Source: Thiobacillus denitrificans DSM 12475 (lineage in GTDB: Bacteria > Pseudomonadota > Gammaproteobacteria > Burkholderiales > Thiobacillaceae). Taken from it: DNA of 64,000 bases. The notes beneath the pieces are model-generated. The model searched no databases and was not told the DNA's origin. It saw nothing but the letters and a program-made list of their open reading frames with translations. The stretch covers positions 42,864-106,863 of the forward strand of contig NZ_AQWL01000010.1 in NCBI RefSeq assembly GCF_000376425.1, in the 5' to 3' direction. Below, piece after piece: positions 42,394 through 63,033 of the stretch. Every line of letters begins with the position of its first letter. Positions within the stretch are counted from its first letter, which is position 1. The position numbers and the translations under genes are program-made.

Positions 42394-42398
42394 GTTCT

Positions 42399-43655
42399 TT
42401 ACCGCCTCTCGATACTCTGGCCGCGCGTCAGTACCACGTCGACCACGCGGCCGCCGTCCACTTCAATCACCGGAAATACCTGCTCGGCCAGCTTGATGTA
42501 ATACTTCGATAGCTGTGACATCGCGCTGCCAACGCCGGATGCCAGTCCAGCCTGCAACTCCTTGCCGTCCGTCACCGTGCTGGTGGAACCCAGCGGTGAG
42601 GTCGATACAGTGCTCGAAGATTCCTTGAACGCTTGCCCGATGCCTGAGCCAATCCCCGCGAGGAAGGCATTCGCCAGCGCCTGCCCCTGCTTGGAAACCA
42701 GCCTTCCGCGCATCCCGGCCTTGCCATCCTCACCGGCTACATACCCTTTAAGCGATACGTCGACTGCCCCGCCTTTCTGGTCGATGCACGACAGACGATC
42801 TGTCCTGATATATGCACGCTCAGAAGATATGTCGCCGTAGCCATTGGCCGTGACCACGCAATCCTTCATGTCGGCCATGTAGCGATTGGGCAACTGGGCT
42901 AGATCGAGCACTCGCATCAGAATCGGATGAGGATTGTTTTGCGCCTGTCCACCCGTCGGCGCATCCAGACCTGCCAGTAACACCACGCGCATGAACGTCC
43001 CGGCAGGAAGATAGTTCTCAGCCGATGTCTTCTCTTCCTTATCTGGGGCGGACGACATGCCAGCGGCTTGTGGCTGCGCCTGCGGTGCGGCAGGCGCAGC
43101 CACCGTCGAATTGGAAACTTCGAGCGTGAACGCGCGCTTCACCACGGGCTGCATCGGCGCATTCGGATCCATGCCAGGCTGTGCGAACTGCCCAGGCCTT
43201 CCAGGAGGCGGTGGGGGAGGGGGCGGCAATGCCGCCGAACCCATGGGTTGCAGCGGGCGTAAATTGCCTCCGGGCTGATTTACCGCTGCCGGGGGAGGCA
43301 TCGGCACTTCGTTGATTCCCGCTCCGGCGGTGCCTTGCATGGATCCACCACTGCTTTGTGGGATATTCACCATGTTCTGCTTGATCGCAGCGATTTCCTT
43401 ATTCAGCGCCTCGATCTTTGATGCTTCGTTCGCCCGCCAAACATCCTTGTCGTTCAGCTGCTGACCAGGAACAGCCATGAGGCTGACCTGTTCAGGCTTG
43501 TCCACAGAAGCCAGATCAGTTTTATTACTCCCGGAGTCGGCGAACCATGCCGCAGCCAAGGCCACCCCGACAATCACGGCGCCGACGCCGACCGCCATCA
43601 TTAGTTGCTTCTTGCGGGCAGGCGACGCCTTGAGGGTGGGTATGATTCGCGCCAT
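42399..43655 (-). CDS. traB: TraB, VirB10-like T4SS core protein
   Basis: 418 residues. One membrane anchor (KQLMMAVGVGAVIVGVALAA), a coiled coil (ASKIEALNKEIAAIKQNM) and a proline run of eight in LPPPPPPPPGRPGQF, which spans the periplasm. The C-terminal VirB10/TraB domain carries LPAGTFMRVVLLAGLDAPTG, ISSERAYIRTDRLSCIDQKG and a hydrophobic antenna-like end. It connects inner and outer membranes. Its ATG overlaps the traK stop (TAATG). Confidence 0.95.
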   Translation of the reverse strand: MARIIPTLKASPARKKQLMMAVGVGAVIVGVALAAAWFADSGSNKTDLASVDKPEQVSLMAVPGQQLNDKDVWRANEASKIEALNKEIAAIKQNMVNIPQSSGGSMQGTAGAGINEVPMPPPAAVNQPGGNLRPLQPMGSAALPPPPPPPPGRPGQFAQPGMDPNAPMQPVVKRAFTLEVSNSTVAAPAAPQAQPQAAGMSSAPDKEEKTSAENYLPAGTFMRVVLLAGLDAPTGGQAQNNPHPILMRVLDLAQLPNRYMADMKDCVVTANGYGDISSERAYIRTDRLSCIDQKGGAVDVSLKGYVAGEDGKAGMRGRLVSKQGQALANAFLAGIGSGIGQAFKESSSTVSTSPLGSTSTVTDGKELQAGLASGVGSAMSQLSKYYIKLAEQVFPVIEVDGGRVVDVVLTRGQSIERR

Positions 43656-48890: not shown

Positions 48891-49198
48891 GCGTCTCTCC
48901 TCCAAGGAATGTATTGGGCACCCGCTGCGCCGCCATAGCTTCCTTGCGAAGGCATGTAACCTGCCGGAGCACTTGGAACAATATCGCTTCCTCGGCCAAC
49001 TTCACCGACGCCACCCGGCGTAAAGAAATCGACGAAGAAATTCCCCACATCGCCCCATGTGATGCCCGAACCCAGTATGCCACCATTAGATGCTTGCGCG
49101 CTTCCCGCACCAAGCCCAGCTGCGACACCCGCTGCGGCAGCGTCAGTCTTCAGCTTGGGAATCATCGGACAGATGAACGGGGCACCCACATCACGCAC
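48878..49198 (-). pseudogene. Orphan Rhs tail remnant 5
   Basis: A 106-codon frame from a GTG overlapping the stop of the preceding immunity gene. It resembles the tail of the full Rhs protein: AAAAGVAAGLGAGSAQASNG, ILGSGITWGDVGNFFVDFF, PGGVGEVGRGSDIVPSAP and QGSYGGAAG. It then diverges into AQYIPWRRDACAS at the PLD-like gene start. The upstream FICPMIPKL resembles the CPGC region of the nuclease. It lacks the nuclease core and the shared SVYSK ending, so it is a truncated displaced tip. Confidence 0.65.
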
Positions 49199-49751
49199 GT
49201 TGAATGTCCCGCTCGCATGGTGCTCTCAAATCTTGGGTAAGACGTCCGCCCGCATCGAGATACTTCGCGGCCTCAACCCCTACGTAACAGACGTCAATGC
49301 GTTCAAAGTGTTTTCGGATGGATTTCTTGAAAGCATCAAATATTGCAAGGGAATCAGGGTGTTCGGAAATGGTATTGATTTCACCCCAGAGCAACCCTTC
49401 ACCTTTTTCACCATGATAGAAGCTGCTCGGGTGGAACACGACGGATTGGTCATTGCCCTGCTGACCGAAGAACCCATACTTCTCTTGCACCTGTCGGTTA
49501 GGCCAATATTCGAAGTGTAAAGGTGCGGTCTCAGGCAACACCAGAAATTGAATTCCTTGAATCCAATCGGGCTGACTACTAACACCAAATTCTGGCGCTT
49601 CTAGTGGCGATCCATAAACACGGAAATCAGTAGGCTGCAACCGTTCTTCATAAACGACAAATTTCAGTCGCATCTGTTCCGAAACATCCATCAGCACTGG
49701 TTCATAGTCAGCCTTTGTTGCAAAATGCCAAATCCTTTTTCCGCGTGCCAT
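49191..49751 (-). CDS. Putative immunity protein, copy B of a duplicated pair
   Basis: 186 residues starting RGKRIWHFATKADYEPVLMD. It is a diverged paralogue of the gene at 50364-50957 (shared GTKADYE/ATKADYE, YGSPLEAPEF/YTSPLDAPDF, SEHPDSLAIF and GGRLTxDLR). No family recognised. It sits between an Rhs tail remnant upstream and remnant 5 downstream and is AT-richer than the Rhs core, as is usual for polymorphic-toxin immunity genes. Cytosolic. Immunity is inferred from position. Confidence 0.6.
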   Translation of the reverse strand: MARGKRIWHFATKADYEPVLMDVSEQMRLKFVVYEERLQPTDFRVYGSPLEAPEFGVSSQPDWIQGIQFLVLPETAPLHFEYWPNRQVQEKYGFFGQQGNDQSVVFHPSSFYHGEKGEGLLWGEINTISEHPDSLAIFDAFKKSIRKHFERIDVCYVGVEAAKYLDAGGRLTQDLRAPCERDIQRA

Positions 49752-49814: not shown

Positions 49815-50357
49815 TCATGGGGTCGTAGTCGATAGAAATCGCCGGAGTCGAAATAACTGTAGTATCAGTTGGTCGTGAGGTTCGTAATTTAGAACCTCTA
49901 CCGAATAAACACCCAGAGATAGTTTTAGAAAAAGTTTGTTCTCGCCTACATCAGCAAACAACTCCGATGAATCAAATATCACTAATTCTGATTCGGTAAT
50001 TTGAAAGTCAAAATCTAATATCTGAAAAGGAAATTCCATTTCAGCATCAAGAGCTGCCCAAATTTTCTCATCAGATTCCGCTCCAACCCATTTCACAAGG
50101 ACGGCCTCTGTGTCTGTGTTCAGATACACCGCTAGGTCGCTCGGCAAATCATCAATAACAAGTATTGACCTGTCATCGCTTTGTATCACGCCAGCGTATC
50201 CATTTATTTCGCAGGCGCGCTGGTAATCGTTAGCATACTCATCGCTATTGTCCGCAAATATTCCATTTGTTGCCCGCCACAGCGAGGCGGCATAACTGCT
50301 TGCCAATATGTATGGTCCACCGTTTGAATTAATCCAATGTGCTCTCATATCAAACAA
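49815..50357 (-). CDS. Imm21-like immunity protein, copy B
   Basis: 180 residues. The N-terminus RAHWINSNGGPYILASSYAA, then LWRATNGI, DYQRACEINGYAGVIQSDD, LVIDDLPSDLAVYLNTDTEA and VKWVGAESDEKI follow the pattern I know for Imm21 immunity proteins (W-I-x-S-x-G-G-P, D-Y-x-R-A-C). Close paralogue of 50992-51555. ATG at 50357 or the Met three codons on. Cytosolic; would neutralise a toxin that is no longer encoded here. AT-rich. Confidence 0.65.
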   Translation of the reverse strand: MFDMRAHWINSNGGPYILASSYAASLWRATNGIFADNSDEYANDYQRACEINGYAGVIQSDDRSILVIDDLPSDLAVYLNTDTEAVLVKWVGAESDEKIWAALDAEMEFPFQILDFDFQITESELVIFDSSELFADVGENKLFLKLSLGVYSVEVLNYEPHDQLILQLFRLRRFLSTTTP

Positions 50358-50363: not shown

Positions 50364-50957
50364 CTATGCAATGTTCGAAGCGGGCGGTGGCTCACGTTTC
50401 ACATCGCCCTCCCGTGGGCTCCGAAGATCACCTGTCAGTCGACCGCCCGCCTCGAAATACTTCACTGCTTCGGGGCCGACATAGACGCCGGAAAAACGGA
50501 AATACTCGAAGCGTTTCTTGATCGACTTCTTGAAGGCATTAAAGATGGCGAGCGAGTCCGGGTGTTCAGAGTTAGTGGCGAGCCAGCCCCCTAACAATCC
50601 CTCGCCCCATTGCTCGCTTTTGTGGAGGCCGCTCGGGTGGAAGCCAATCCAGCGGTAGTTCTCATCGACTGACGACGGAATGATTCCGTACTTCTCCGGA
50701 ACCTGCCGATGCGGCATGTGCGAGAAGGGCAAGGCGGCGTCTTCCGGTAAAACAATAAACATCGTGCCTGGCGACCAGCCCCATTTGAAGAGGTCGAAAT
50801 CCGGCGCATCTAGTGGCGACGTATAGACCCGATGGTCTGGTTCAAGTCTCCATTCATCCACTGCGTATTTCACCGCAAATTGAGCCGCGACATCTGCGAT
50901 TACCAGTTCGTAATCGGCCTTAGTTCCATAGTGGTAAATCGAATGTCCACGTGACAT
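50364..50957 (-). CDS. Putative immunity protein, copy A of a duplicated pair
   Basis: 197 residues starting MSRGHSIYHYGTKADYELVI. Paralogue of 49191-49751 with the same order of motifs (YTSPLDAPDFDLF, GTMFIVLPEDAALPFSHMPH, GFHPSGLHKSEQWGEGLLGG, SEHPDSLAIFNAFKKSIKK, GGRLTGDLRSP). No recognised domain. It directly follows Rhs tail remnant 3, so in the past it probably paired with a toxin ending in that tail. Confidence 0.6.
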   Translation of the reverse strand: MSRGHSIYHYGTKADYELVIADVAAQFAVKYAVDEWRLEPDHRVYTSPLDAPDFDLFKWGWSPGTMFIVLPEDAALPFSHMPHRQVPEKYGIIPSSVDENYRWIGFHPSGLHKSEQWGEGLLGGWLATNSEHPDSLAIFNAFKKSIKKRFEYFRFSGVYVGPEAVKYFEAGGRLTGDLRSPREGDVKREPPPASNIA

Positions 50958-50968: not shown

Positions 50969-51007
50969 TTACTTGGAGTAGACAGATTGCATCATATTGG
51001 TATTGGC
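50969..51007 (-). repeat. Rhs tail remnant 3 (ANTNMMQSVYSK-stop)
   Basis: Thirteen codons on the minus strand encode ANTNMMQSVYSK and a stop. They overlap, in another frame, the end of the upstream Imm21-like gene. Everything upstream of this tip tail has been replaced by that immunity gene. Confidence 0.85.
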
Positions 51008-51555
51008 AGAAGTTTCCGAAGTCGAAATAACTGTAGCATCAGTTGGTCGTGAGGTTCGTAACTTAGAACCTCTACCGAATAAGTGCCCAGAGATAATTTT
51101 AGAGAAAGTTTGTTTTCGCCTGCATCAGCAAACAACTCCGATGAATCAAAGATCACCAATTCGGATTCGGTAATTCTAAGGTCAAAATTTAGTCTCTGAA
51201 AGGGCAATTCCCTTTCAATATCAAGAGCTGCCAAAATTTGCTCTTCAGATTCTGCTCCGACCCATTTAACAAGGACGACCTCTGTGTCAGTGTTCAGATA
51301 CACAGCCAAGTCGCTCGGCAAATCACCAATAACAAGTATTGACTCGCCATCGCTTTGTATCACACCAGCGTATCCATTTATTTCGCAGGCGCGCTGATAA
51401 TCGTTAGCACAACCATCGCCATGGTCCACAGATATTCCATTCGTGGCTCGCCACAACGAAGCGACACGGTTACTTGCCAATATGTACGGTCCGCCGTTTG
51501 AATTAATCCAATGTGTTCTCATGTCAGAAACAGTGCCGTAAAAGAGTTGACTCAC
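50992..51555 (-). CDS. Imm21-like immunity protein, copy A
   Basis: 187 residues if started at the GTG overlapping the stop of tail remnant 2 (GTGA); the ATG at 51522 (MRTHWINSNGGPYILAS) matches the paralogue start better. Shares with copy B the motifs LWRATNGIS, DYQRACEINGYAGVIQSDG, LVIGDLPSDLAVYLNTDTEV, VKWVGAESEEQI and the long C-terminal EVLSYEPHDQLMLQLFRLR. Imm21-like by pattern. Ends within tail remnant 3 in a shifted frame. Confidence 0.65.
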   Translation of the reverse strand: MSQLFYGTVSDMRTHWINSNGGPYILASNRVASLWRATNGISVDHGDGCANDYQRACEINGYAGVIQSDGESILVIGDLPSDLAVYLNTDTEVVLVKWVGAESEEQILAALDIERELPFQRLNFDLRITESELVIFDSSELFADAGENKLSLKLSLGTYSVEVLSYEPHDQLMLQLFRLRKLLPIPI

Positions 51556-51791
51556 TTTGAATACACTGATTGCATCATGTTGGTATTGGCCTTGTTCGGG
51601 TAGAGCAGGAAGCCCCCACCCGCGGCGCCACCGTAGCCACCTTGATATGGCGCGTAACTGGAAGTTTGTGCGCGGGGCACTATGTCGCTTCCTTGACCTG
51701 CTCCACCAATGCCTCCAGGCACCAGAAAGTCAAGCACGAAGTCGCCCACATCGCCCCAAGTAATATACCTGACCCTAAAATTCCAAACCAA
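51552..51791 (-). pseudogene. Orphan Rhs tail remnant 2, frameshifted
   Basis: About 70 codons of Rhs tail: ITWGDVGDFVLDFLVPGGIG, GSDIVPRAQTSSYAPYQGGY, GGAAGGGFLLYPNKANTNMM, QSVYSK and stop. Just upstream, near 51770, the bases for GILGSGI are present in a different frame. Compared with remnant 5 two extra bases occur there, so the module is frameshifted. It has no nuclease part and no proper start; it is a displaced tip that has decayed. Confidence 0.75.
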
Positions 51792-51828
51792 TCCCTGGTA
51801 TTCCTTGACGGTGGGTCAGATATCGCAA

Positions 51829-52431
51829 TTAAGTGGTCATCAGTTCTCGGCGGTTATCGAACGCCAACAAGTCGATGTGCTGTTCAACCATCGCTTCCTC
51901 GAAAGCACGCCATCCCCGTTTTTCTATTGCTTCGCGTTCCTTGGACGATATTGGAATTAACTGGACAATTGCCACTGGCGGAGACACAGCCTCACACACT
52001 TCGAATTCAGCCGGGAAATATCCAGGGAGTGCCAAATAGAAATGTTCGAACACTGGATTGAGCAAAATAGCACCCGATCCCATCAAGACCCTACGAACTC
52101 CAGGGGTCGCGTGCTGCGTAACGGCATCTTGTCCGACTGCGAAAAGCAGTGCCGCCAGCGCATCAGGATCAAAGGAGGAGTCGGCGCAAATCAGCAGCTC
52201 CATTTTGATCGCGTTGTCGCCGTTACCGACGATTTGCAACAGATGAGCTGACAAGCCATACGTGACCAAACATTGGCTATCCTGCTTAGGGCGCTCCGAA
52301 AACAACAACACTTGGAACGATGGCGCAGCATTATTCAGCCATCGCTTTTTTAACGGCCCTAAGAATCGCTCAAGATGGCGAAGAACAGTTTCTCCTTGCA
52401 GATTCACTTCCACAACCAGAACTCCAATCAA
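51829..52431 (-). CDS. SUFU-family (suppressor-of-fused-like) immunity protein
   Basis: 200 residues, 10 bases after the Rhs stop and therefore the likely cognate immunity protein of the HNH tip. Pattern of the SUFU family: LVTYGLSAHLLQIVGNGDNA followed by KMELLICADSSFDP, a central region AVGQDAVTQHATPGVRRVLM, and VQLIPISSKEREAIEKRGWR, then DLLAFDNRREL. SUFU proteins are common immunity proteins in polymorphic toxin loci. Start at MIGVLVVEVNLQGE. Cytosolic. Confidence 0.72.
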   Translation of the reverse strand: MIGVLVVEVNLQGETVLRHLERFLGPLKKRWLNNAAPSFQVLLFSERPKQDSQCLVTYGLSAHLLQIVGNGDNAIKMELLICADSSFDPDALAALLFAVGQDAVTQHATPGVRRVLMGSGAILLNPVFEHFYLALPGYFPAEFEVCEAVSPPVAIVQLIPISSKEREAIEKRGWRAFEEAMVEQHIDLLAFDNRRELMTT

Positions 52432-52441: not shown

Positions 52442-55400
52442 TCATTTACTGTAGACCGACCGCATCATATTCGTGTTGGACTTATTCGGGTAAAGCAGGA
52501 AGCCACCGTTAGCGCCGCCGCCCCATGAGCTGGAAGCACCACCTTGAGTGCTCGGCAACCCTGGCGCATTTGCCGTTCCTGGAGAGACGAAGAAGTCGAG
52601 AACACCTTCGAAGATGCCGCGCAAAGTAATTCCCGAACCAAAAATACCGCTGTCACCCGCCTGTGCATTTCCACTCACACCTGCTGCTACTGTCCCTGCT
52701 GCAATTGCGGGCAATTTATTATCAGCCCGGTTACACCCCGGGCACATAGCTTCAATGTTCTTTCCGTAAGCGTCCCTAACCTCGGATCGGGTGACCGTCC
52801 CGCCCTTGTCGAGCGTGTTCAGAAACTCTCTCTGAGTTTCGCCCCATTTCTTCACATGATTGATGTCGTATTTTAAGACTTCCTTTCCGCAACTAGGACA
52901 GACAATCCCGCCGTTCTGTCCCCTTACTGCCGCCTGCTCAACAGCTTCCCTCTCTGAAACACGCCAGCCTCGTCTCGCGATAAGTTTCTCAACTCCTTCA
53001 ATACCCTTTGCCGTAAGTTTCTCAGCAAGCTTAACGATGGATACCGGATTCATCCCGTCCGGATCATTCGCATTGACCGGATTGTTGCCCACATAGGCAT
53101 AGAAGTTGATCCCTGCCTCGAACCCCAGCGGGTCTTCGCTGGCGAACCGCCCGATGACTGGGTCGTAATACCGCGCCCGGTAGTAGTAGAGCCCCGTCCC
53201 GTCGTCCTCCCGCCCCGTGTACTTCAACCGGTTCGGGCTCGTCCCCGTCGTGCTCTGCGTGCCGCCGAAGGCGCTGAAGGTCGTGCTCTGCAACGTCCCG
53301 CCGTTATGCCCGCTGACCGCCGTGGTGCTGGTCACATTGTCGTGATGGAACAGGAAGGGTTTCAGCTTGGCGTCGGTGTCGTACAGGTAGCCCGCCACCA
53401 GTTCGTCCGTACTGCTGCCCCGGAAGTATTTGGCGTACAGGTTCGTTCCCGAGTACACCGACTCCAGGTGCTCGCCTTCGAGGAAGTAGTCGAGGCTGCC
53501 CAAGCTTCCGCCCGATCTGCCGATGCGGTAGTCCATCGAGTCGTAGCTGTAGGTTTCCGCGCCCACGGTCTTCACCCGGCCCTTGGCGTCCCAAGTCAGG
53601 GTCTTCGCGCCTGTTCCCATCTGGCTGGTCAACCGGCCCTCGAAGTCATGGCTGAAGCTGGATTCAACCGTGCCCGCTGCCGATCCGATGCGGATGTCCA
53701 GCAGGCGATTGGTATCTGCCGTGTAGTTGTAGTAACGGGTGTTGCTGTTCGCCGTCAGGCTGCCCTTGGTGTACGTCTTGCGGTTGCCCGCCTTGTCGTA
53801 GGTGAACAGCTCATCGTTGGCCGTGCCGGGATAGTCGGCGGTCTTGAGGCGATACAGGGGATCGTAGGCGTAGGTGGTGGTGCCGCTGCCATCCACGCTG
53901 GTGAGGATGTTGCCGGTGCGGTCTCTCGTGTAACTGGTATCCGAGATCAGCGCATTGGCGGCGTCGTACTGGGTGAGCCGGGTCTGCCAGCCGTTGGCGT
54001 CGAACTGGCTGGTGGTTCTGGCGCCTGCGCTGGTGACTCTGGACAGCAATCGTCCCGCCGGGTCGTACTGGTAATCGACTTGCAGGTAGTCGGGGTTGCG
54101 CAGCATGACCAGGCGGTTGGCGGCGTTGTAGGTGTAGCTCGTGGTTGAGCCCTGGTAGGTGGTCTTGGTGAGGATGTTGCCTACCTTGTCGAAGGTGAAG
54201 GACAGGCTCTTGCCGCGACCGTCGGTCTTCTGGGTCAGGCGGTTGAGGCGGTCCCAGGCGAAGCCGTAGCCGACCGATCCGTTGGCGGCGGCATTGGGGT
54301 TGCCCGCAGCATCGTAGCCGAAGGTCTCGGCGCTGTTGTCCTTGAGGTAATCGGCGCGGGTCGGGCGGTTGGCTTTGTCGTAGGTGAGGCGGGTCACCTC
54401 GTTCAGGCGGTTGGTTTGCTCGTAGACGTTGCCGGCTTCGTCGGGCTGGTAGCCGATGGTCTTGGCGCTGTGGTCGGTCTCGCTCTTCAGCCGGCCGAGG
54501 TCGTCGTAGGCGAAGCTCCAAGTCTTGAGTTCGGCGTCCTTGACGCTGAGGCGGTTGCCCGCGAGGTCGTAGGTGAAGACGGTTTCGCCGTTGTCGGCAT
54601 CGACGATCTTCGTGACGCGGTTGAGTTCGTCGTATTGCCGGGTCTCGGAGCAGGCCGGGGTCTGGGTGTTCTTCGTCTGCAGCCCGGCCTGGGCATTGGC
54701 GTCGATGGTGCAGGTGAGGTTGCCGTTCTCGTCGTACTGGAATTCGCTGCGGAAGCCCATCGGATCGACGGCGGCGGTCTTGCGGCCGAGGGCGTCGATC
54801 TCGAATTTGACCGTTTCGTCGTTGGCGTTGGTCACCGCCACCACGTCGCCCCTGAGGCTGTATTTGGTTTCGGTGCGGTAGCCGGTGGCGTCGATGACCG
54901 CCGTGCGGCGGTTCATGGCGTCGTATTCGACCCGGGCGGTGTGGCCTTCGGCGTCGGTGACGGCGACGACGTTGCCGGTTTCGTCGTAGGTATAGGTGGT
55001 GACGTTGCCCTCGGCGTCGGTCTCGGTCTTGACCCGGTCGGCGGCGTCGAACGTGCGGGTGACGACATCGCGCACGTCGAAGGTGGCGTCGGGCTTCTTG
55101 TAGCGATGGGTGACCTTCCACAACTGGCCGTTGGCATCGAAGCTGTTGACGACTTCGTTGCCGAGACTGTCAGTGGCCTTGGTGACGCGGTCCAGCGCGT
55201 CGTAGTCGTAGCTGGTGGTGAGATCGATCAGCGTGGCGTCGGTGGGGCTGGTGCGGCGTTTCAGGGTTTCGGTTTTCTTGCGGCCGAGGCTGTCCCAGGT
55301 GTAGGTCTGGGTGATCGCGATGTTGGCGGGCTGGCCGACGGTCTGCTGCTGGGATACGTTGAGGCCGCCGCTGCCGGTTTCGTAGGTCAGCCGGGTTTCG

Positions 55401-57034
55401 CGGTAGCGGGTGGCGTCGAGATACTGGCGGCTGTAGTTCAGGGTGGCGTCGCTGTTCCAGCACTGGCTGGCCAGCAGCACGTTGGCCGAGCCTGCCAGCG
55501 CGCCGATGCGGGTTTCCTTGGGGCGGTTGGCGTAGTCGCAGCCGGAGGTCGCGGTGGCGTAAGTCGTGGTGGTGACCGTGCCGCGCTTGTCCTTGGCCGT
55601 GGCCACCTGGTCCAGCGGCCCATACGTCATGTCCACCGTGCGGTTCAGGGCGTCCTGTTCGCGGGTGACGTTGCCGTTGGCGTCGCTGGCGCCGGCGAAG
55701 GCCTTGTCGGCGCGGTAGCTGTAGCTGGTGGCATATCCCTGGGCGTCGTATTTCTTGCTTCTGATGGCGTCGCCCTGGTTCTCGAACAGCAGCACGCCGC
55801 CGTCGGGCTCCCTGAGCTGCGTCATGCGGCCGTTGTCGTCGTAGAAATACTCCCGGATTCCGCCGCGCGCGTCGGTGACGCGGGTGCTCTTGCGGTAGAG
55901 GTCGTAGTCGAGAATGTCGCCCTGACCGAGGCCGTTGGTCTGCTGGAAGGCGCGGCCGTTCTGGTAGTACTGGAAGACGGTCTTGACGGGCTGGCCATCG
56001 CGGGCAAGGGGCTGGACGACTTCGGTGAGCAGATGACGGGGGGCGTCGTAGGCGTAGGTCAGCACTTCGGCGAGCGGGTTGGTACGGGTGCTGAGGTTGC
56101 CGGAAGCATCGTAGGCGAAGCTCCATTTTCTGGCGGTCCAGTCGGACACGTCCTTGAGCCGGCCATTGGCGTCGTAGGTGAAGACAAGCCCGGTGCGGGT
56201 GGAGATGCCGAGGTTGTCGGTGATCGTCGAGAGGCGGCCGTTGGTATCGTAGGCGAGCGTCAGGCGGTCACCCCAGGCGTTGTCGATGTATTTGAGGCGG
56301 GCGACGAGGTTGGGCGTGGTCTTGAGGCTGCCGCTTGGCACTTCGAAGATGTACTTCACGCCGTTGCGGAAGACCAAAGTGTGCTGCCCCGCAGCCGGGC
56401 TGTCGAGCGTCAGGGTGTCGTAGACGCCCTTGGGCGCGGTGACGGCATAGCTGGTTTCGTCGACCAGGTAGGCCTGCTCGCCACCGCGCTCGTCGGTGTA
56501 GGTGACGGAGCTGGTTTTGCTGTTGGCGTTCTCGGGCTTCTGCGCCGAGGTGCAGTTGGGGCAGTCGCCGAAGTCGTTGGACTTGAGCTGCATCAGATAG
56601 GAATGGGTCCAGCCGTAGCCCAGGCCGCGGTCCACAGAGGTACTGCTCGGCGCGCTGTTGTAGGTGCGGGTGAAGACGAGGTTCAAGCCATTGCGGCCGC
56701 GAATGACGAAGTCGGTTTCGTCGTGGTAGTTGTTGCCGGAGACGGTGGAGATGGGATCGGCGGTGGACGGGGTGCGGATGGCGTCGTTGTTGACCGTGCC
56801 CACCAGTACGCGGTCGTTGAACTGGTCGTTGTTGAAGGTGGGCAGCACCGACACGCCGCCGGTGTTGATGGCCTTGGCGGGGTTGAGAACGGCGGCGCCG
56901 TCGACGTAGCCGCCGGCAAGGGCGGGCATTGCGCTCGTCAACGTGAAGCAGGCGAGCGTGAGGGCGGCAAGCGGGCGTCGGTGGCGTTCGAGGAAACCGG
57001 ATTGCATGGCGGACGAGGCAGGATGGCGGCGCAT
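52442..57034 (-). CDS. rhs: Sec-exported Rhs protein with C-terminal HNH-type nuclease and conserved tail
   Basis: 1530 residues. Signal peptide (HRRPLAALTLACFTLTSAMP, to about residue 40). A plug-like N-terminal region with NLVFTRTYNSAPSSTSVDRG is followed by many YD repeats (for example LTYDKANRPTRADYL, TYTYDETGNVVAVTDAEGH) that build the Rhs cocoon. The core ends with YYYRARYYDPVIGRFASEDP, then NDPDG at about residue 1327. The toxin follows: CPSCG (C1379, C1382), DINHVKKWGE (His1393), DAYGKNIEAMCPGCNRADNK (C1431, C1434), an HNH/treble-clef nuclease pattern. A Gly-rich tail of about 65 residues ends FLLYPNKSNTNMMRSVYSK. It begins 4 bases after the transglutaminase-fold gene. A SUFU immunity gene follows at once. 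Confidence 0.93.
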   Translation of the reverse strand: MRRHPASSAMQSGFLERHRRPLAALTLACFTLTSAMPALAGGYVDGAAVLNPAKAINTGGVSVLPTFNNDQFNDRVLVGTVNNDAIRTPSTADPISTVSGNNYHDETDFVIRGRNGLNLVFTRTYNSAPSSTSVDRGLGYGWTHSYLMQLKSNDFGDCPNCTSAQKPENANSKTSSVTYTDERGGEQAYLVDETSYAVTAPKGVYDTLTLDSPAAGQHTLVFRNGVKYIFEVPSGSLKTTPNLVARLKYIDNAWGDRLTLAYDTNGRLSTITDNLGISTRTGLVFTYDANGRLKDVSDWTARKWSFAYDASGNLSTRTNPLAEVLTYAYDAPRHLLTEVVQPLARDGQPVKTVFQYYQNGRAFQQTNGLGQGDILDYDLYRKSTRVTDARGGIREYFYDDNGRMTQLREPDGGVLLFENQGDAIRSKKYDAQGYATSYSYRADKAFAGASDANGNVTREQDALNRTVDMTYGPLDQVATAKDKRGTVTTTTYATATSGCDYANRPKETRIGALAGSANVLLASQCWNSDATLNYSRQYLDATRYRETRLTYETGSGGLNVSQQQTVGQPANIAITQTYTWDSLGRKKTETLKRRTSPTDATLIDLTTSYDYDALDRVTKATDSLGNEVVNSFDANGQLWKVTHRYKKPDATFDVRDVVTRTFDAADRVKTETDAEGNVTTYTYDETGNVVAVTDAEGHTARVEYDAMNRRTAVIDATGYRTETKYSLRGDVVAVTNANDETVKFEIDALGRKTAAVDPMGFRSEFQYDENGNLTCTIDANAQAGLQTKNTQTPACSETRQYDELNRVTKIVDADNGETVFTYDLAGNRLSVKDAELKTWSFAYDDLGRLKSETDHSAKTIGYQPDEAGNVYEQTNRLNEVTRLTYDKANRPTRADYLKDNSAETFGYDAAGNPNAAANGSVGYGFAWDRLNRLTQKTDGRGKSLSFTFDKVGNILTKTTYQGSTTSYTYNAANRLVMLRNPDYLQVDYQYDPAGRLLSRVTSAGARTTSQFDANGWQTRLTQYDAANALISDTSYTRDRTGNILTSVDGSGTTTYAYDPLYRLKTADYPGTANDELFTYDKAGNRKTYTKGSLTANSNTRYYNYTADTNRLLDIRIGSAAGTVESSFSHDFEGRLTSQMGTGAKTLTWDAKGRVKTVGAETYSYDSMDYRIGRSGGSLGSLDYFLEGEHLESVYSGTNLYAKYFRGSSTDELVAGYLYDTDAKLKPFLFHHDNVTSTTAVSGHNGGTLQSTTFSAFGGTQSTTGTSPNRLKYTGREDDGTGLYYYRARYYDPVIGRFASEDPLGFEAGINFYAYVGNNPVNANDPDGMNPVSIVKLAEKLTAKGIEGVEKLIARRGWRVSEREAVEQAAVRGQNGGIVCPSCGKEVLKYDINHVKKWGETQREFLNTLDKGGTVTRSEVRDAYGKNIEAMCPGCNRADNKLPAIAAGTVAAGVSGNAQAGDSGIFGSGITLRGIFEGVLDFFVSPGTANAPGLPSTQGGASSSWGGGANGGFLLYPNKSNTNMMRSVYSK

Positions 57035-57038
57035 GGTG

Positions 57039-59744
57039 TCAGTTTCCTTCTGCGGTTTGCGTGTCGGCGGCGATGTTGTCTGCGGCAGGCGCCGGGCTGT
57101 CCAGCCCGACGTAGCCGCCGCCCGCTACGAAGCTCTTGTTGGCGATGCTCATGCCCATGCTGGTGAGCTTGTCCCCCGCCGTTATGTAGCCCTTGCTTAT
57201 GTTGACCGAGAAGCGATAAGTCGAGCCTGTGGTCAGCTTGGAGGGGATCAGGTACTCGAACCAGGTCTGGGTGATGTCGCGCAGGTAGAGGGTGTTGCGG
57301 ATTCCGACGATGGTCGCAGTATCGTGCGCGTCGATCGCAGCGGGGATGGCGCGGTAGACCTGACTGGCGAGGGTGAAGCCCTGGTTGCGGTCGAAGTAGT
57401 CGAAGTAGGTCTGGCCGAGGATGCTGGGGATGATGTAGGTGCTCCAGTCGTCGCTGATGATGCCCAGAATGGTCGTCTTCGTGGCGTTGTTGAACGGTTC
57501 TCCGGAACAGGTAGACCCGGTGTAGAAACCGTTCGGCAGGCTGTTGATGTAAGCGATCTGGTCCGAGACGCACTTCGACCAGCCGTAGAGTTGGCCGGTA
57601 GGCGAGGAATAGTAATAGCTCGCATACAGGCGCCTCAGCGAACTCGTGGTCAAGTCGACCGTGGCAAGAAAGGTATCGAACAACGAACCATTGACCGTGT
57701 GTTTCCAAGTTGCGGGCGCGGTGGAGAAGATGGTGTAAGGGTAGGACGTGAAGCCCGACGGTGCAGTCGAGGCGAACCCGAACGAAGCGTAGAGGCTGGG
57801 CAAGGTGTCTTCGGTGGCATTTTTCTTGGGGTTGAGCAGCGTCGCGCCGTTGGCCAGCGCCATCTGGATGCCGCGCACCGTGGACACGGCATCGTAACCG
57901 GTGAGTTCCTGCCAGATTTCGTGTTCGAGCGAGGAACCGACGTGCCCCATGAATTCGAACTGACGGCTGGAGTAGATGACGCCTGCATCGTTTGCCCGAT
58001 AGGCGCCGCCGACCAGAATGCCTTTCATGTCGATGAGCAGACCGCCGGGCAGGATGGAGAAGGCGGTGCCGTCGATGTACTCGGCCTCGTAGACGGAACT
58101 GACCACGCCGAGAAAGCCGATCACCGGGGTACGGGTTTTCATGAGGCGGTCGCTGCGTTCGATCTGTTCGCGGAATTTGGCGTAATACTGAGTGGCGCCC
58201 ACGTATAGCAGGCCGCCGGTAAGGGCATCGAGCGCGGGCTTGTCCTCCAACAGTTTCTTGTCGGCCGCGTCCCAGCCGTTGCCGGTGGCGTCCACATAGG
58301 GCGTGCAGTTGACGCCGTCGGCCAGGCAGCCCGCTTCGCCGGGGTTGAAGACGATCTTGTACTGGCCGTTGGCGTCGAGCAGTTGGTCGGCGGCACGGTG
58401 CACCTGCGACCAGTTGGAGGATTCGCCTCCAGTGGCCACCAGGTAATAGCCGCCGACGATGCCGGAATAGCTTGCGGAGATGGTGCGGTCGGTTTCGCTG
58501 CTGGTTGCGCCTGGCGCGCCGTCCATACTCACGGTCAGGGTGAAGGGGTCGCCGACGCTCGGCGTATAACCAACGATGGTGCCGTTGCCCGACAAGGGGC
58601 GGGCGATCTCGGTGCCGCCCAGACGGGTGACCACATTGGGGATGTTACCCGGTGCCGGAAACTCGGTAGATAGGGTCAGCCGCTTGGTGTTGATTTCGGC
58701 CAGAAGCGCATTCCCCGCCCCCAGTGTGACGGTGAGCGTGCCGCCGCCATCCAGCGGCGCGACCATGTAGAAGCTGATCGAGAGGCGCTTCCCCCACTTC
58801 TTGGGTTCGGTAGCGGGCACGGCGGCGTCGTGGTCAGCCACCGTATCGTAGCGGCGGGTGGCGCCTACTACCTGATACGGCAGCGAGGCGGGCAGCAGTC
58901 CTTCGTTCAGTTCGACGATCTCGCCCGCGTCTTCCACGTCTTCCAGCGTCTTGCCGGGATGGTTGGTTCGCAGCCAGTCGCCGATCTGCGTTTCGAGAAT
59001 GGCGAGCGGGTTCTTGTCGCGCCGCGCGGTGTCGTTGTTCTTGATGGCGTTGTAATAGGCCGTGTAGTCGAAGGAGACGGCGTTGTAGGGGTCGAGGTTC
59101 AGCCCGTTGTAGGTTTTCTGCTTGAAGCTCGCGTCCAGCGCCACCCAGGTGCAGCGCGCGGCATTGGCTGTTTGCGAACAATCGACCGCCGGCGTGACGG
59201 TGTTGATGCCCCGGTACTGGTCGAAAGGCACGTAGGCCTCGGCCCAGGTGTGTTCGAAGTCCACGCTGCTACTGTCGGACGCCAGGGTGACGCCCTGGAT
59301 GCCCTGGTCTTTCAGCACCTGCACGGCCACGTCCAGGCTGCCGACGCCGAGCCAGTTGGTCAGCTGCGCGGCGGGAATGCGCACGGTGCCGACGGCGTAG
59401 CGCGCCGGAATGTTTTGCGAGCGCAGCATGGCGATGAGGGTGGTGGCGATGTCCACGTCGCTGCCGCGCTGGCCGAGGAAAGTGTTGACCGAGCCCGAGC
59501 GCGAACCGTGGTAGGCCGAGTATTCGACGGTGTTGTGCAGATATTCGTAGATGCCGACCGCGGTGCCGAGCGCCGTGGCCTTGTCGGCCAGGGCTTGTGC
59601 GTCAGCGCCGGAGTAGACGATTTCCGGGGTTTCGCCGAGGGTAGCGGCCAGGGCGGGCGCGGCCAGGCAAACCGCCAGCGCACAAGCGGCAAGCCGGACC
59701 GCGCGAATGAAAGGCATGGATATCATGGATGGGCTCCTGCTCAT
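57039..59744 (-). CDS. Rhs-associated exported protein with a transglutaminase fold lacking the catalytic Cys
   Basis: 901 residues. Signal peptide ends near PALAAT (residue 34). Residues about 60-210 form a transglutaminase-like domain: FLGQRGSDVDIATTLIAMLR, IPARYAVGTVRIP, FEHTWAEAYVPF (His165) and WVALDASFK (Asp204). The position of the catalytic cysteine is Asp96 in GSDVD, so the classical reaction is not expected. The large remainder is beta-rich with stretches such as YLVATGGESSNWSQVHRA and LEHEIWQELTGYDAVSTVRG, typical of proteins encoded beside Rhs genes. It overlaps the 247-residue gene upstream by four bases. It may act as an Rhs chaperone or surface partner. Confidence 0.85.
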   Translation of the reverse strand: MSRSPSMISMPFIRAVRLAACALAVCLAAPALAATLGETPEIVYSGADAQALADKATALGTAVGIYEYLHNTVEYSAYHGSRSGSVNTFLGQRGSDVDIATTLIAMLRSQNIPARYAVGTVRIPAAQLTNWLGVGSLDVAVQVLKDQGIQGVTLASDSSSVDFEHTWAEAYVPFDQYRGINTVTPAVDCSQTANAARCTWVALDASFKQKTYNGLNLDPYNAVSFDYTAYYNAIKNNDTARRDKNPLAILETQIGDWLRTNHPGKTLEDVEDAGEIVELNEGLLPASLPYQVVGATRRYDTVADHDAAVPATEPKKWGKRLSISFYMVAPLDGGGTLTVTLGAGNALLAEINTKRLTLSTEFPAPGNIPNVVTRLGGTEIARPLSGNGTIVGYTPSVGDPFTLTVSMDGAPGATSSETDRTISASYSGIVGGYYLVATGGESSNWSQVHRAADQLLDANGQYKIVFNPGEAGCLADGVNCTPYVDATGNGWDAADKKLLEDKPALDALTGGLLYVGATQYYAKFREQIERSDRLMKTRTPVIGFLGVVSSVYEAEYIDGTAFSILPGGLLIDMKGILVGGAYRANDAGVIYSSRQFEFMGHVGSSLEHEIWQELTGYDAVSTVRGIQMALANGATLLNPKKNATEDTLPSLYASFGFASTAPSGFTSYPYTIFSTAPATWKHTVNGSLFDTFLATVDLTTSSLRRLYASYYYSSPTGQLYGWSKCVSDQIAYINSLPNGFYTGSTCSGEPFNNATKTTILGIISDDWSTYIIPSILGQTYFDYFDRNQGFTLASQVYRAIPAAIDAHDTATIVGIRNTLYLRDITQTWFEYLIPSKLTTGSTYRFSVNISKGYITAGDKLTSMGMSIANKSFVAGGGYVGLDSPAPAADNIAADTQTAEGN

Positions 59745-60484
59745 TTTGCTTTGGGCTTGCGCGGCTTGGCCTTGACCGGCGCTACCTGCGGCTTCGCTTC
59801 AGAAGCCCCCACTGCGCGGATCGGGGTTGCGCTGGTGGACGGCATGGCTTGCAGGGTGGGCGTGGCAACAGGCGGCGCATCGCGCAAGCGGTTGGTAGAG
59901 GGCGAAAGCTGCTGTTGCAGATCCAGCAGTTTCGCCAGACGCTCGGGCTCGCCGTCGGCGAGCGCCGCATCGAGCTTTTGCGCCAGGCGGTCGAAGAGTT
60001 GCGCGCGCTGCCCGGCCACGGGCAGTCCTGCCGAAGCCGTTCCGGAATCGACGCCCGCAAGCGCACGGGAAGCCAATACGCCGCCGTGCTGGCGTAATTG
60101 CGCTGCAAGCGCGCGGGCATCGGCACGGGCGGTGTTGCGTTGTTCGGCGGCCAGCGCGTGCGCTTGGGGGCGAGTGGGCGCTTCGCCGCCCTGAACGGTG
60201 ATCGAGGCCCGATCGTCCGCATTGAGTTCGGCGGCGACGAGCGTATTCACGGCGGTGCGCAGACTGCCGAGCTGCTCGGCGTCGGCAGGATCGTCCACCG
60301 CGCTTTTCTTAGCGGCGAGCACGTTGCGGCCGATGGCGCGGATGGCGCTCAATTGCGCAGGAGCAAGCTCGCGAACGGAGGTTTTGGGTGCAGGCTCGGC
60401 ATTGGCATCAGGCGGTGCGGCATGCACGGGAAGCGAAATGACCAGCACTGCGGCAGCAAGCAATTGGGTACGATTTGGCGGCAT
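59741..60484 (-). CDS. Exported helical protein of unknown function
   Basis: 247 residues. Signal LLAAAVLVISLPVHAAPPDA. The mature part is Ala/Leu/Arg-rich and strongly helical (RELAPAQLSAIRAIGRNVLA, QLFDRLAQKLDAALADGEPE). A Pro/Lys-rich tail follows (VKAKPRKPKAK). No family recognised. It overlaps the transglutaminase-fold gene (ATGA) and follows the LRR gene by 9 bases, so it is part of the same operon. A periplasmic adaptor is a possible role, by position only. Confidence 0.75.
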   Translation of the reverse strand: MPPNRTQLLAAAVLVISLPVHAAPPDANAEPAPKTSVRELAPAQLSAIRAIGRNVLAAKKSAVDDPADAEQLGSLRTAVNTLVAAELNADDRASITVQGGEAPTRPQAHALAAEQRNTARADARALAAQLRQHGGVLASRALAGVDSGTASAGLPVAGQRAQLFDRLAQKLDAALADGEPERLAKLLDLQQQLSPSTNRLRDAPPVATPTLQAMPSTSATPIRAVGASEAKPQVAPVKAKPRKPKAK

Positions 60485-60493
60485 GGCGGTTCC

Positions 60494-61753
60494 TTAAACC
60501 TGTTCGTTCGTCGGGCGGCGGTTGGCACGGTTGACAGCACCCATCAGCGCCGCGCCCAGCGCGCCCAGCGCCCACAGCGGGATCGGCACGTCGCCGTCGC
60601 TCGGACTCGATACCGGGTTGCCGGCCAGGTTGGTGCTGGTGAGATTGGTCAGGCCTGCGATCGGCGAAGTGTCCGAGATGTTGTTGTTCGACGCGTTGAG
60701 CGTGGTGAGGCTGGTTGCGTATTGCAGACCTTCGAGGCTGCTCACGTCGCTGTTCGAGATGTCGAGGGTGGTCAGTTGCGACAGCTCGCCCCGGTTGAGC
60801 TGGTCCATCGCGCCGCGCCCCAGCGCCGCGTTGATGGCATCCCTTAGCGCTGCGTCCGGCACGTTCACCCGCTCTCGGCTGGTCGCGGCGTCCGCGCCTT
60901 CTCCGGCGGCGAAGGCCTGCGCGATCAGCCCCGCTGCGAACACGCCGGCGTCGAAACCGCCGTCGGCCGCGCGCTGGAGCGTGACCAGCGAATCGAGCAG
61001 CGTCACCGCGTCCGCCGAAGCCGGGTCTATGCGCAGATAGGCGAGCGCGGCCGCAGCGCGCACATGCGGCGCGGAGGACGTGGTGACCAGGGTCTTGAGG
61101 GTGGCGACGGCATCGGCCAGCGGGATAGCCAGGGTTGAGTCGGTCGCTTTGTACGGCGCGAGCGCCATGACCACGCGGGCGGTCGTGTAGGCATCGGTGG
61201 TGCTGCCCGCTGCCGTGGGCCAGCCTTTATCGCCCGTGGCGGTGAGCTGTGCCGCTTTCAGGTACGCAACGGCTTGCGCGCTGTCGAAGCTGGCGCCCGC
61301 CGTGCGCAGGGCATCCAGTGCCAGGGCAGTATCTAGGGGCGAAGCCTGGTAACGCTCGGCAAGCCCCCAGCCAGCTTGGCCTGTGGCCGGGATGGTCGTT
61401 GCGGCGAGGAGGCCGTCGATGTCGGGCTGGGCACTGGACTGGGTGGCACGCAGCACCAGCAGGCGGCGCGCCTGCGCATCCAGATTCTGCGGGTCGTGGT
61501 TTTCGAGCCAGGTTTGGCCGGCATAGTACGGGGCGCGGCGGCGATTGACCTGATGCAGTGCCAGCACGGCTTCGGCGGTCTGCAGGAAAGTGCGTGCTTC
61601 GGAAACGTCGTGCCAACTGCCGTCGCTTGCATCCTGTTGAGTTTCCAGCCATTCAGCCGCGCGCTGCGCCGGGGTCGCATACACGCCCGCCTGCGCCGCG
61701 GAAGCGGCGATCAGGGCGAGTAAAAATGAATAGGCAATGCGATGGCACTTCAC
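60494..61753 (-). CDS. LRR surface protein with exosortase-type C-terminal sorting signal
   Basis: 419 residues from a GTG with GGGAGAAGG upstream. Signal peptide to about ASAAQAG (residue 22). Residues about 25-300 form alpha/alpha repeats like squalene-cyclase/prenyltransferase domains (AAEWLETQQDASDGSW, QAGWGLAERYQASPLDTALA, LKAAQLTATGDKGWPTAAGS). Residues about 300-388 are internalin-like leucine-rich repeats (LTTLDISNSDVSSLEGLQ, TSLTTLNASNNNISDTSPIA). The last 34 residues are a tripartite sorting signal: VPIPLW, a hydrophobic helix ALGALGAALMGAV and a basic end NRANRR. It is the obvious substrate of the neighbouring exosortase. LRR domains usually bind proteins, possibly the Rhs partner. 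Confidence 0.85.
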   Translation of the reverse strand: MKCHRIAYSFLLALIAASAAQAGVYATPAQRAAEWLETQQDASDGSWHDVSEARTFLQTAEAVLALHQVNRRRAPYYAGQTWLENHDPQNLDAQARRLLVLRATQSSAQPDIDGLLAATTIPATGQAGWGLAERYQASPLDTALALDALRTAGASFDSAQAVAYLKAAQLTATGDKGWPTAAGSTTDAYTTARVVMALAPYKATDSTLAIPLADAVATLKTLVTTSSAPHVRAAAALAYLRIDPASADAVTLLDSLVTLQRAADGGFDAGVFAAGLIAQAFAAGEGADAATSRERVNVPDAALRDAINAALGRGAMDQLNRGELSQLTTLDISNSDVSSLEGLQYATSLTTLNASNNNISDTSPIAGLTNLTSTNLAGNPVSSPSDGDVPIPLWALGALGAALMGAVNRANRRPTNEQV

Positions 61754-61898
61754 GAGCCTTCTCCCAAGGGCTGGACAGCGGGGAGGCTACGCACAGATTG
61801 TGACGGTTGGTCACGCCCGGATTCGGCCAGTGCCTGAGCCAAACGGCTCTTAAACTAAAGTTGTATAGACAGCGCGGCGAATTTATGAGCAAACCCAT

Positions 61899-62504
61899 TC
61901 AGGCAGCCTTGCGCGCCAGCCTCCACCCGGCAAGCCCCAGGATTACCGCCACGCCCAGCCGCCCCCCTGCGTGCAGGAATTCGTGCCAGACCATCAGCAG
62001 CGAGAAGCGGCTGGGGTCGAGGTTGTCGACGAACATGTCCCACACGTAGGCATGCAAAGTCATGGGCAGATCAATCAGCAGGAAGCCGAAGGCCAAGAGC
62101 GCGGCAAGAGCGAAGGCAAGGGCTCTCGTATACAGCGCGCCCGGCAACGCGAAGGCGATGGCGGGGGCGATGACCAGCGGTTGCAGCATCGCGCCGGTGG
62201 TGGTGGTGACTTCGAGCCATCCCGTCGGGCTCTCCCCGATCACCTTTCCGCCCATGACGAAGAGCTGGAGGATGTTCACCCTGAGCCTCACCACGGTGTC
62301 CTGCCAGTTGTGCTCGACGCCGAGAAACAGGATGCCGAAGCGGTCGTCGATCCAGCCCAGCAGGATTCTGGTAAGGGGCAGCACGCTTTCGATCAGGGAT
62401 TCGCCCCACGCCCACGCGGCCGCGAGCGTGACGGCAAGACCGAGGATCAGCGCCAGCGCGAACCGGCCCGGGCTAGGCCAGGCGTCTGCGGTGGAGGACG
62501 GCAT
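61899..62504 (-). CDS. Exosortase-associated polytopic membrane protein
   Basis: 201 residues, overlapping the exosortase 3' end by 32 bases. Four hydrophobic stretches: FALALILGLAVTLAAAWAW, LQPLVIAPAIAFALPGALY, ALAFALAALLAFGFLLIDLP and LGVAVILGLAGWRLA. The soluble loop has FLGVEHNWQDTVVRLRVN. No catalytic motif seen. Known exosortase loci of the XrtH type carry an associated membrane protein next to the enzyme, which this resembles in position and topology. Inner membrane; role inferred. Confidence 0.75.
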   Translation of the reverse strand: MPSSTADAWPSPGRFALALILGLAVTLAAAWAWGESLIESVLPLTRILLGWIDDRFGILFLGVEHNWQDTVVRLRVNILQLFVMGGKVIGESPTGWLEVTTTTGAMLQPLVIAPAIAFALPGALYTRALAFALAALLAFGFLLIDLPMTLHAYVWDMFVDNLDPSRFSLLMVWHEFLHAGGRLGVAVILGLAGWRLARKAA

Positions 62505-63033
62505 AGAAATACAGGGCGACCGCCGCGATCAGCACCGCAGGCAGGACGGTGGTGTGCAAGACGTCGAACAGGCTGCGCTCGTTGCGGAAGGCATAGAAGA
62601 GGGCGAGGATGCGCGCCTGGTTGAGGACAAACACGAGGCCCAGCCCTAAGGCCAAGCCGATCAGTTTGCGCCGCCAGCCCAGATTGACGGCGGCAAAGGC
62701 GGCGATCAGCAGGAACATGACTTCGGTGCCTTCGCAGCCGTTGAGGATGTTGAGCCCGCCGCCCGACGCCTTGATGCTGGCAGCGACCGGCCTGGCGTTC
62801 ACCTCAGGGGTGATGACTTGCACCAGCGCGGCGGCTGGCTTGACCGTGGCCTCATGTATGACCAGCCGTTCGACCCAAGTGTCGCGTGATTCGCTCCATA
62901 CCCATTGCAGCATGGCGAACATGCCAAGAAAAATCACCAGCGAAAGCCACAAGGGATACGGCGTTTGTGGCGGTTCGTTGTCGCACTGGCCATCGGGCAG
63001 ATACGACAAATCGTTGTGCGTGAGAATGGACAT
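62473..63033 (-). CDS. xrt: Exosortase / archaeosortase family transpeptidase
   Basis: 186 residues with about four or five membrane segments (LWLSLVIFLGMFAMLQWVW, VMFLLIAAFAAVNLGW, LIGLALGLGLVFVLNQ, VLPAVLIAAVALYFYAVL). The catalytic triad is visible: Cys100 in LNGCEGTEVM, Arg141 in NQARILALFYAFRN and His160 in DVLHTTVLP. Exosortases cleave C-terminal sorting signals of exported proteins and attach them to the envelope or release them. The substrate is most likely the LRR protein two genes downstream. First gene of the cluster; 268 AT-rich bases lie upstream. Subtype not assigned. Confidence 0.88.
   Translation of the reverse strand: MSILTHNDLSYLPDGQCDNEPPQTPYPLWLSLVIFLGMFAMLQWVWSESRDTWVERLVIHEATVKPAAALVQVITPEVNARPVAASIKASGGGLNILNGCEGTEVMFLLIAAFAAVNLGWRRKLIGLALGLGLVFVLNQARILALFYAFRNERSLFDVLHTTVLPAVLIAAVALYFYAVLHRRRLA

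Follow-up and report, generated by a model that had tools for sequence, protein, structure and literature searches.

A 64,000-nt stretch of the Thiobacillus denitrificans DSM 12475 genome (contig NZ_AQWL01000010.1), referred to here as the window, carries a cluster of six open reading frames (ORFs) in which an exosortase gene and its membrane partner precede genes for a tagged companion protein and a secreted Rhs toxin. All six lie on the minus strand, between positions 52442 and 63033 of the window, whose numbering is used throughout. A reading of the stretch made from sequence only had proposed that a single-substrate exosortase serves to display the toxin at the surface or to release it. 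The gene arrangement that it described, with its overlaps and a single 145-bp gap at 61754-61898, was confirmed from the ORF list of the window. From the exosortase gene onwards, the features are as follows.

62473..63033, minus strand: exosortase, XrtM/XrtH-like, 186 aa; matches TIGR04178 and has the invariant Cys, Arg and His
61899..62504, minus strand: membrane protein, partner of the exosortase, 201 aa; 32-bp overlap with the exosortase gene; no Pfam or NCBIfam family
61754..61898, minus strand: spacer of 145 bp, common to the genome's cassettes, containing a conserved 21-nt block (61849-61869)
60494..61753, minus strand: tagged companion with a Sec-like N-terminus, a predicted alpha/alpha-toroid (squalene-cyclase-like), leucine-rich repeats (LRR) and a DGDVPIPLW-helix-RR sorting tail
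60497..60601, minus strand: the sorting tail, SDGDVPIPLWALGALGAALMGAVNRANRRPTNEQV; E 7.5e-20 when the genome is searched with the tail profile
59741..60484, minus strand: secreted protein of 247 aa; 9-bp gap from the toroid gene
57039..59744, minus strand: secreted protein whose transglutaminase-like (TG) domain is Cys-less (inactive); Transglut_core; 4-bp overlap with the 247-aa gene
52442..57034, minus strand: secreted Rhs/YD-repeat toxin; RHS_repeat, DUF6531 and Rhs core; 4-bp gap from the TG gene

The first gene product belongs to the exosortase/archaeosortase superfamily (TIGR04178, 45.6 bits, cut-off 23), and its residues C100, R141 and H160, which we take to form the exosortase active site, were invariant in all nine aligned exosortases. 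Its scores fell below the cut-offs for both XrtM (TIGR04300, 63.9 bits, cut-off 125) and XrtH (TIGR04177, 55.3 bits, cut-off 86), so that neither subfamily name is earned; the best XrtM score among the scanned relatives (112.9, locus L072) was also below 125. No credible family was found for the membrane partner in Pfam or NCBIfam (the window protein in both, two relatives in NCBIfam). Across 12 loci, the pairwise identities of the partner follow those of the exosortase (Mantel r 0.89).

The genome encodes three copies of the XrtM/XrtH-like exosortase, those at loci L025 and L026 being 84-85% identical to the one in the window, as well as two exosortases of the ordinary EpsH type. Common to the three cassettes is a block of approximately 1.3-1.4 kb, 80-85% identical in DNA. 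It begins roughly 100 bp ahead of the exosortase gene and extends to the start codon of the next gene in the window and L026, and in L025 it stops 55 bp short of that codon. Beyond the block the DNA differs among the three, apart from short repeats outside the cassettes in L025 and L026 (354, 231, 43 and 31 bp) and a 148-bp stretch of Rhs common to the window and L026. The 21-nt block in the spacer (TCTATACAACTTTAGT[C/T]TAAG, 61849-61869) is kept in the three cassettes and in loci L045, L046 and L048. At three or fewer mismatches the genome has four such sites, three of them in cassettes, and the reversed control has none. Use of the block as a regulon site is unsupported, the sole extra site having two mismatches and being separated by about 430 bp from the beginning of a gene that resembles a conjugation-coupling gene by eye. 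Within the genus of the window, exosortase matches were present in 10 of 37 genomes at 1e-8, six of them at 1e-40, a patchy distribution like that of accessory genes.

The tagged companion had been called an LRR protein. It does have an LRR_4 match above the cut-off (32.5 bits, cut-off 27) as well as the sorting tail, but our comparisons indicate that it is mainly a predicted alpha/alpha-toroid protein with an IPTL-CTERM-like tail, in which the LRR is not a conserved feature. Its N-terminal part matches (tblastn) the proteins at the same position in L026 (E 1.8e-5), L028 (E 1.1e-8) and L030 (E 6.5e-5). These score 30.3-34.0 bits against SQHop_cyclase_C (cut-off 26.1), and the window protein itself reaches 12.1 bits, under the same cut-off. 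A profile of ten toroid proteins, built like the TG model from loci including that of the window, matched solved squalene-hopene cyclases with E values down to 9.6e-17. The LRR was rejected as the defining part, since an immunoglobulin (Ig)-like module occupies its position in L026, L028 and L030. The C-terminal modules of the toroid proteins vary more widely, with LRR by eye in L053 and L123, putative Ig modules (He_PIG) in L026, L028, L030, L201 and L202, and, also by eye, FG-GAP-like (L123) and TSP3-like (L121) repeats.

The tail of the window toroid (VPIPLW-helix-NRANRR) is present as first described and has the tripartite build of IPTL-CTERM tails, namely a motif, a hydrophobic helix and a basic C-terminal end. 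The tails that we compared have in common an acidic stretch, [IV]-P, W-[GA], the hydrophobic helix and basic residues; that of the Rhodoferax toroid (L055) reads APLPAW by eye. Against the IPTL-CTERM model TIGR04174 (cut-off 20.5) the window protein gave no match up to E 0.1, and the model was passed by the L028 toroid (22.5) and, internally, by the Rhs protein of L031 (23.3).

A search of the genome with a tail profile of four rows, one of them the tail from the window, returned three strong matches, one near each XrtM/XrtH-like exosortase, with the next best at E 0.5. This is the pattern of a dedicated sorting system, one enzyme with one nearby target, here three enzymes with three strong targets. 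The tagged protein, a toroid in the window and L026 and a subtilase with RCC1 repeats in L025, lies directly behind the cassette in the first two and about 1.6 kb, or two ORFs, further on in the third. In Denitromonas iodatirespirans all three tag matches lie within 3 kb of its exosortase, the next best being at E 0.15. The term single-substrate exosortase therefore fits each locus but not the genome, which has three copies with one strong tag each in addition to the EpsH enzymes. In two relatives the sorting signal is inside the toxin chain (Rhs in L031, TG-Rhs in L075); behind it come basic residues and then another hydrophobic stretch, the end of which resembles that of a signal peptide. 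After two cuts, such a layout would leave both parts outside the inner membrane. No internal signal of this kind was visible by eye in the TG and Rhs proteins of the window.

The window TG protein matched Transglut_core at 47.2 bits (cut-off 23). Its residues were examined in an alignment of 53 rows (some of them duplicate records, L047 left out), in which the column of the catalytic Cys was set by alignment to the solved chain 3isr_A. Four rows have no residue in this column, and Cys occurs in none of the other 49 (Ala in 31, Asp in 10, Pro in 5, Ser in 3), the window protein having Asp. Of 51 rows, 48 retain the catalytic His and 50 the Asp. The domain is thus predicted not to be an enzyme of the usual type, and active crosslinking by a transglutaminase was rejected because the catalytic Cys is absent. 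A Cys-less TG fold after a signal peptide (judged by eye) and before RHS repeats, here on the next gene, is the arrangement of the inactive-TG toxin class. The preceding 247-aa gene corresponds, by position and length only, to the segment before the TG domain in the long chains of relatives, and its product is 52% identical over 186 aa to a stretch in the Denitromonas locus L053. Among the exosortase-linked loci, TG and Rhs are fused into a single chain in L026, L028, L046, L048, L049, L055, L199, L200 and L201, whereas L053 has them on separate genes like the window. In many relatives a single chain thus corresponds to genes 4 to 6, for the 247-aa, TG and Rhs proteins.

The final gene encodes an RHS toxin (RHS_repeat 267.7 bits, cut-off 22; Rhs_assc_core 87.1 bits, cut-off 32.5) with a conserved body and a variable tip. 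Identity to the Denitromonas Rhs protein is 65-87% over aa 1-1300, falls to 24-30% over aa 1301-1500 and is again 70% in the final 30 residues; likewise, the Rhs proteins of L026 (the second copy in the genome) and L046 are 92-100% identical over aa 1-1400, 77-88% up to aa 2300 and at most 38% thereafter. The tip in the window is a GH-E nuclease (PF14410, 27.2 bits, cut-off 25), and those of other loci are Endonuclea_NS_2 (L048), Tox-REase-7 (L049) and, by eye, deaminase-like (L026) or nuclease-like (L046). The guanine plus cytosine content drops from 64.2% in the Rhs body to 52.5% in the tip (52442-53050) and 48.7% in the immunity array downstream. A variable tip on a conserved body, with SUFU and two Imm21 immunity genes downstream, is the make-up of a polymorphic toxin. 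The tip and the array comprise the following features.

52442..53047, minus strand: variable-tip stretch, GH-E HNH/EndoVII nuclease (PF14410) with the conserved tail GGFLLYPNKSNTNMMRSVYSK
51829..52431, minus strand: SUFU-family immunity gene (PF05076, 54.1 bits)
51555..51815, minus strand: 3' end of a displaced tip with a complete copy of the tail motif (tail-profile match)
50992..51555, minus strand: Imm21 immunity gene (PF15589, 80.3 bits)
50364..50957, minus strand: putative immunity gene resembling the 186-aa gene at 49191-49751; no Pfam family
49815..50357, minus strand: second Imm21 gene, 87% identical in DNA to the first over 519 bp
49191..49751, minus strand: putative immunity gene, second copy, preceded by a tail remnant; no Pfam family

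Between 49765 and 52534 the Rhs tail, recognisable as a 40-nt direct repeat, occurs four times before immunity genes, as a copy or a remnant, and the pair of Imm21 and the family-less gene is duplicated downstream of Rhs. Tail copies before immunity genes are what would be expected if old tips had been displaced successively, and we read them as a probable array of displaced tips. A further tip-like fragment lies at approximately 48902-49225. The terminal tail of the window tip is shared with Denitromonas, L123 and L126. In a sample of 274 genomes of the same class it was found at E 0.001 or better in three, the same three that had supplied the class-sample rows of the profile. Around L126 (G201:C40:771-4570), one contig bears an Rhs tail together with two more tail copies, an arrangement like that of the window.

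The products of genes 3 to 6 have Sec-like N-termini by eye; the sequence-only reading had seen Sec signals rather than adaptors of the type VI secretion system (T6SS) on the Rhs and TG proteins. When scanned against Pfam, the Rhs protein showed no PAAR and neither it nor the TG protein a TPS domain, and the genome has no match to the T6SS sheath protein VipB; export by T6SS or by a two-partner (contact-dependent inhibition) system was rejected on this basis. A search for type II secretins gave three matches, none above the family cut-off; the secretin-like gene at G000:C2:286248-287615 (L235, L237) has an in-frame TGA within the match.

A search for the gene set in other genomes was the check put forward by the sequence-only reading. 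The set was found again in named genomes from other genera, and this, together with the E value of the tail in its own genome, shows that the observation is not chance. The order exosortase, membrane protein, toroid and TG(-Rhs) was found in five of the six loci of Thiobacillus/Hydrogenophilales type (L045-L050); L047 and L050 have another cassette, in inverted orientation, in between, and L045 ends after the toroid gene. The same order was seen in Denitromonas (L053), Rhodoferax (L055), G542 and G337, and the same genes in a different order in G169, G101 and G524. Denitromonas iodatirespirans IR-12 has the same layout as the window. Among 36 named exosortase loci, 13 have a toroid and/or TG gene, 13 have another tagged protein and 10 have neither detected. 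Several of these stretches end at contig ends, and every row was kept in the count, including likely duplicate records (L079/L030, L074/L027 and L076/L029; L045, L046 and L048 with G306, G305 and G289).

Two genome samples were used to assess co-occurrence. In the class sample of 274 genomes, the exosortase was found in 18, the TG protein in 16 and both in five; the two are at the same locus in three of these (G000, G101, G169), about 12 kb apart in G239 and on different contigs in G032. A toroid lies within approximately 4 kb of the TG gene in 10 of the 16 TG genomes, six of the 10 having no exosortase match, and in four of the six TG genomes that have no toroid nearby, the TG gene lies less than 4 kb from a contig end or on a contig shorter than 7 kb. 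In a sample of 300 genomes of the same order, the TG protein was found in 16 and the exosortase in 34 at 1e-10 and 18 at 1e-40. Six genomes with a strong TG match and the 18 with a core exosortase overlap in four, with both at the same locus in all four (Fisher p 1.3e-4, with cut-offs of 1e-80 for TG and 1e-40 for the exosortase set after the tables had been seen and relatedness among genomes uncorrected). The p value is 0.0014 when the genome of the window is left out, 0.011 for all 16 TG genomes and 0.045 for all 16 minus the genome of the window. A toroid is near the TG gene in seven of these 16 genomes. Among the eight strong TG loci of this sample, seven have a toroid beside the TG gene, six of these seven toroids are tagged and five loci have an exosortase in the same stretch. 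The loci covered leave out a second one of G309 (C5). Since the toroid adjoins the TG gene even where the exosortase is missing, toroid and TG-Rhs belong together.

Taken together, we read the cluster as a Sec-type polymorphic nuclease-toxin locus of the inactive-TG/Rhs kind, placed behind and coupled to its own exosortase cassette. The 247-aa, TG and Rhs proteins would be exported by Sec and the toroid protein alongside them. The exosortase would recognise the DGDVPxPxW-helix-Arg tail and cut it, and the product would be joined to, or released at, the outer membrane or cell surface. The role envisaged for the Cys-less TG domain is one of binding: through it the Rhs toxin would dock on the toroid once this is anchored, and display or release of the toxin at the surface would be owed to the exosortase. 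Upon contact, the C-terminal GH-E nuclease would enter the neighbouring cell, and the SUFU and Imm21 proteins would protect the producer. We consider this chain as a whole, mechanism included, to have an even chance of being correct. More tentatively, and at somewhat less than even confidence, we suggest that an exosortase-class enzyme has become dedicated to a polymorphic toxin, processing the toroid as an envelope dock for the Cys-less TG-Rhs protein, with cassette, body and tip swapping separately. The window toroid has 74% identity to its counterpart in Denitromonas L053 and 33% to the one in L026, and the exosortase shows the opposite pattern (64% and 83%), which suggests that exchange of the anchor cassette was independent of that of the toroid-TG-Rhs module. 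Such exchange would support recognition by way of the tail.

The link between exosortase and toxin stands in so far as exosortase, tag, TG and Rhs co-occur between genera, the three tags are local to the three enzymes and in-chain signals occur in L031 and L075. Several observations weigh against the coupled reading. The exosortase is not toxin-specific: the tagged proteins scanned for families include subtilases (L025, L133) and subtilase-like and phosphatase/nuclease-like proteins (L053), and 23 of the 36 named exosortase loci are without toroid or TG, 13 of them with another tagged protein. Independent exchange of modules also cautions against taking adjacency as functional proof, and over the 12 loci the toroid identities follow those of the exosortase weakly (Mantel r 0.38, compared with 0.89 for the membrane partner), which makes the cassette partly independent of its client. 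The sequence-only reading had itself named homologous Rhs loci that regularly lack the exosortase and LRR genes as a refutation, and TG-Rhs homologues do often lack this exosortase. No exosortase match was found in 11 of the 16 TG genomes of the class sample and no core exosortase in 12 of the 16 in the order sample, six of these 12 having a weaker match that is never in the TG locus. A link so often missing is not obligatory. G323 has a tagged toroid beside TG and no exosortase match, its contig ending 2.9 kb away; in G341, no tag was found on one of two TG-adjacent toroids (L204) and a third locus has no toroid (L203). On the toroids near TG in exosortase-less loci, neither the tail nor, by eye in the sequences inspected, an alternative anchor was recognised.

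These observations would suit an arrangement of two neighbours with two jobs, in which exosortase, partner and tagged protein form a self-contained surface cassette, TG-Rhs leaves by its own Sec route, and the two travel together through swappable islands or shared regulation. The other clients of the cassette, the weak correlation between toroid and exosortase and the frequent occurrence of TG-Rhs without exosortase all favour it, as do the limits of the shared block in the genome, which ends at the start codon of the next gene or 55 bp short of it. We nevertheless think it rather unlikely, because toroid and TG genes adjoin even where no exosortase is found, the tail is borne by TG-adjacent toroids in several genera, and signals occur inside Rhs and TG-Rhs chains. 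The same in-chain signals could mean that the exosortase cuts the toxin chain itself, a mid-chain cut separating the leading secreted part from Rhs, with these parts encoded by separate genes in the window. L031 has both an internal IPTL_CTERM match (23.3, cut-off 20.5) and a weak match to midcut_by_XrtH (23.9, cut-off 45), but only two loci have this layout, L075 matches neither NCBIfam model and no such signal was seen in the window TG and Rhs proteins, so that this mode of action appears improbable. An equally low probability attaches to the toroid being an adhesin or target recogniser and not an anchor, the sorted toroid sticking to the neighbouring cell while the toxin acts nearby. The variability of its C-terminal modules (LRR, putative Ig, FG-GAP-like, TSP3-like) is in keeping with such a role, whereas the steady pairing with a Cys-less TG fold would go unexplained and no receptor is known.

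Other features of the window lie outside the cluster. F-type conjugation genes occupy 26670-43655, including TraG_N (26670-29696), TraC (38394-40970) and TrbI (42399-43655), and the toxin cluster adjoins a likely integrative conjugative element. A JetD-like protein (8960-10102; JetD_C 29.4 bits in Pfam, JetD 55.7 bits in PADLOC) is encoded near a 1667-aa protein that has no Pfam or PADLOC family, and this gene run (8397-17403) is possibly a divergent Wadjet-like system. A Protoglobin-PAS-GGDEF-EAL protein (21253-23859) may be an oxygen-sensing cyclic di-GMP enzyme, and a PLD-domain protein (47244-48905) has weak DrmC/DpdK-like matches.

Parts of the locus resemble systems that are already known. 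Sec-exported Rhs toxins with an N-terminal inactive TG domain and a variable tip were described in 2012 (Zhang et al. 2012, PMC3482391), in a paper that lists SUFU and Imm21 among the immunity proteins against HNH-type toxins. The same paper proposed that inactive TG domains hold Sec-exported Rhs toxins at the cell surface; the part of its text available to us names no partner and mentions neither 'sortase' nor 'toroid'. The window shares with those toxins the Sec signal, a TG domain that has lost its catalytic residue, RHS repeats, a variable tip and the immunity types, and differs in its separate TG and Rhs genes, exosortase cassette and tagged toroid. Compared with XrtM/XrtH and IPTL-CTERM (TIGR04174), the signature, the invariant Cys, Arg and His and the tripartite tail are alike, and the tails of some relatives pass TIGR04174; the window exosortase differs in scoring under both subfamily cut-offs, in having local clients only and in its conserved partner of no named family. 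NCBIfam already holds a family named for mid-chain cutting by an exosortase, midcut-by-XrtH (NF033207). By name and scores, the only basis of this comparison, L031 likewise has a mid-chain signal, but the match is weak and the window has no such mid-chain signal. Dedicated sorting systems such as rhombosortase likewise pair an enzyme with one nearby target, as described in the accessible text of PMC3237569; here there are three pairs per genome, and the companion of a polymorphic toxin is among the clients. In the open-licence papers, as far as their text was available, no link of an exosortase to Rhs or inactive-TG toxins was found.

The recurring toroid, with its exosortase tail, offers a concrete candidate for the surface partner of the TG domain. 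The known clients of exosortases are mostly biofilm-related and secreted proteins, and if the coupled reading is true, these enzymes would gain a possible role in bacterial competition. Denitromonas iodatirespirans IR-12, as a named strain, makes the reading directly testable. The locus suggests, but does not yet show, a new way of holding killing proteins at the cell surface.

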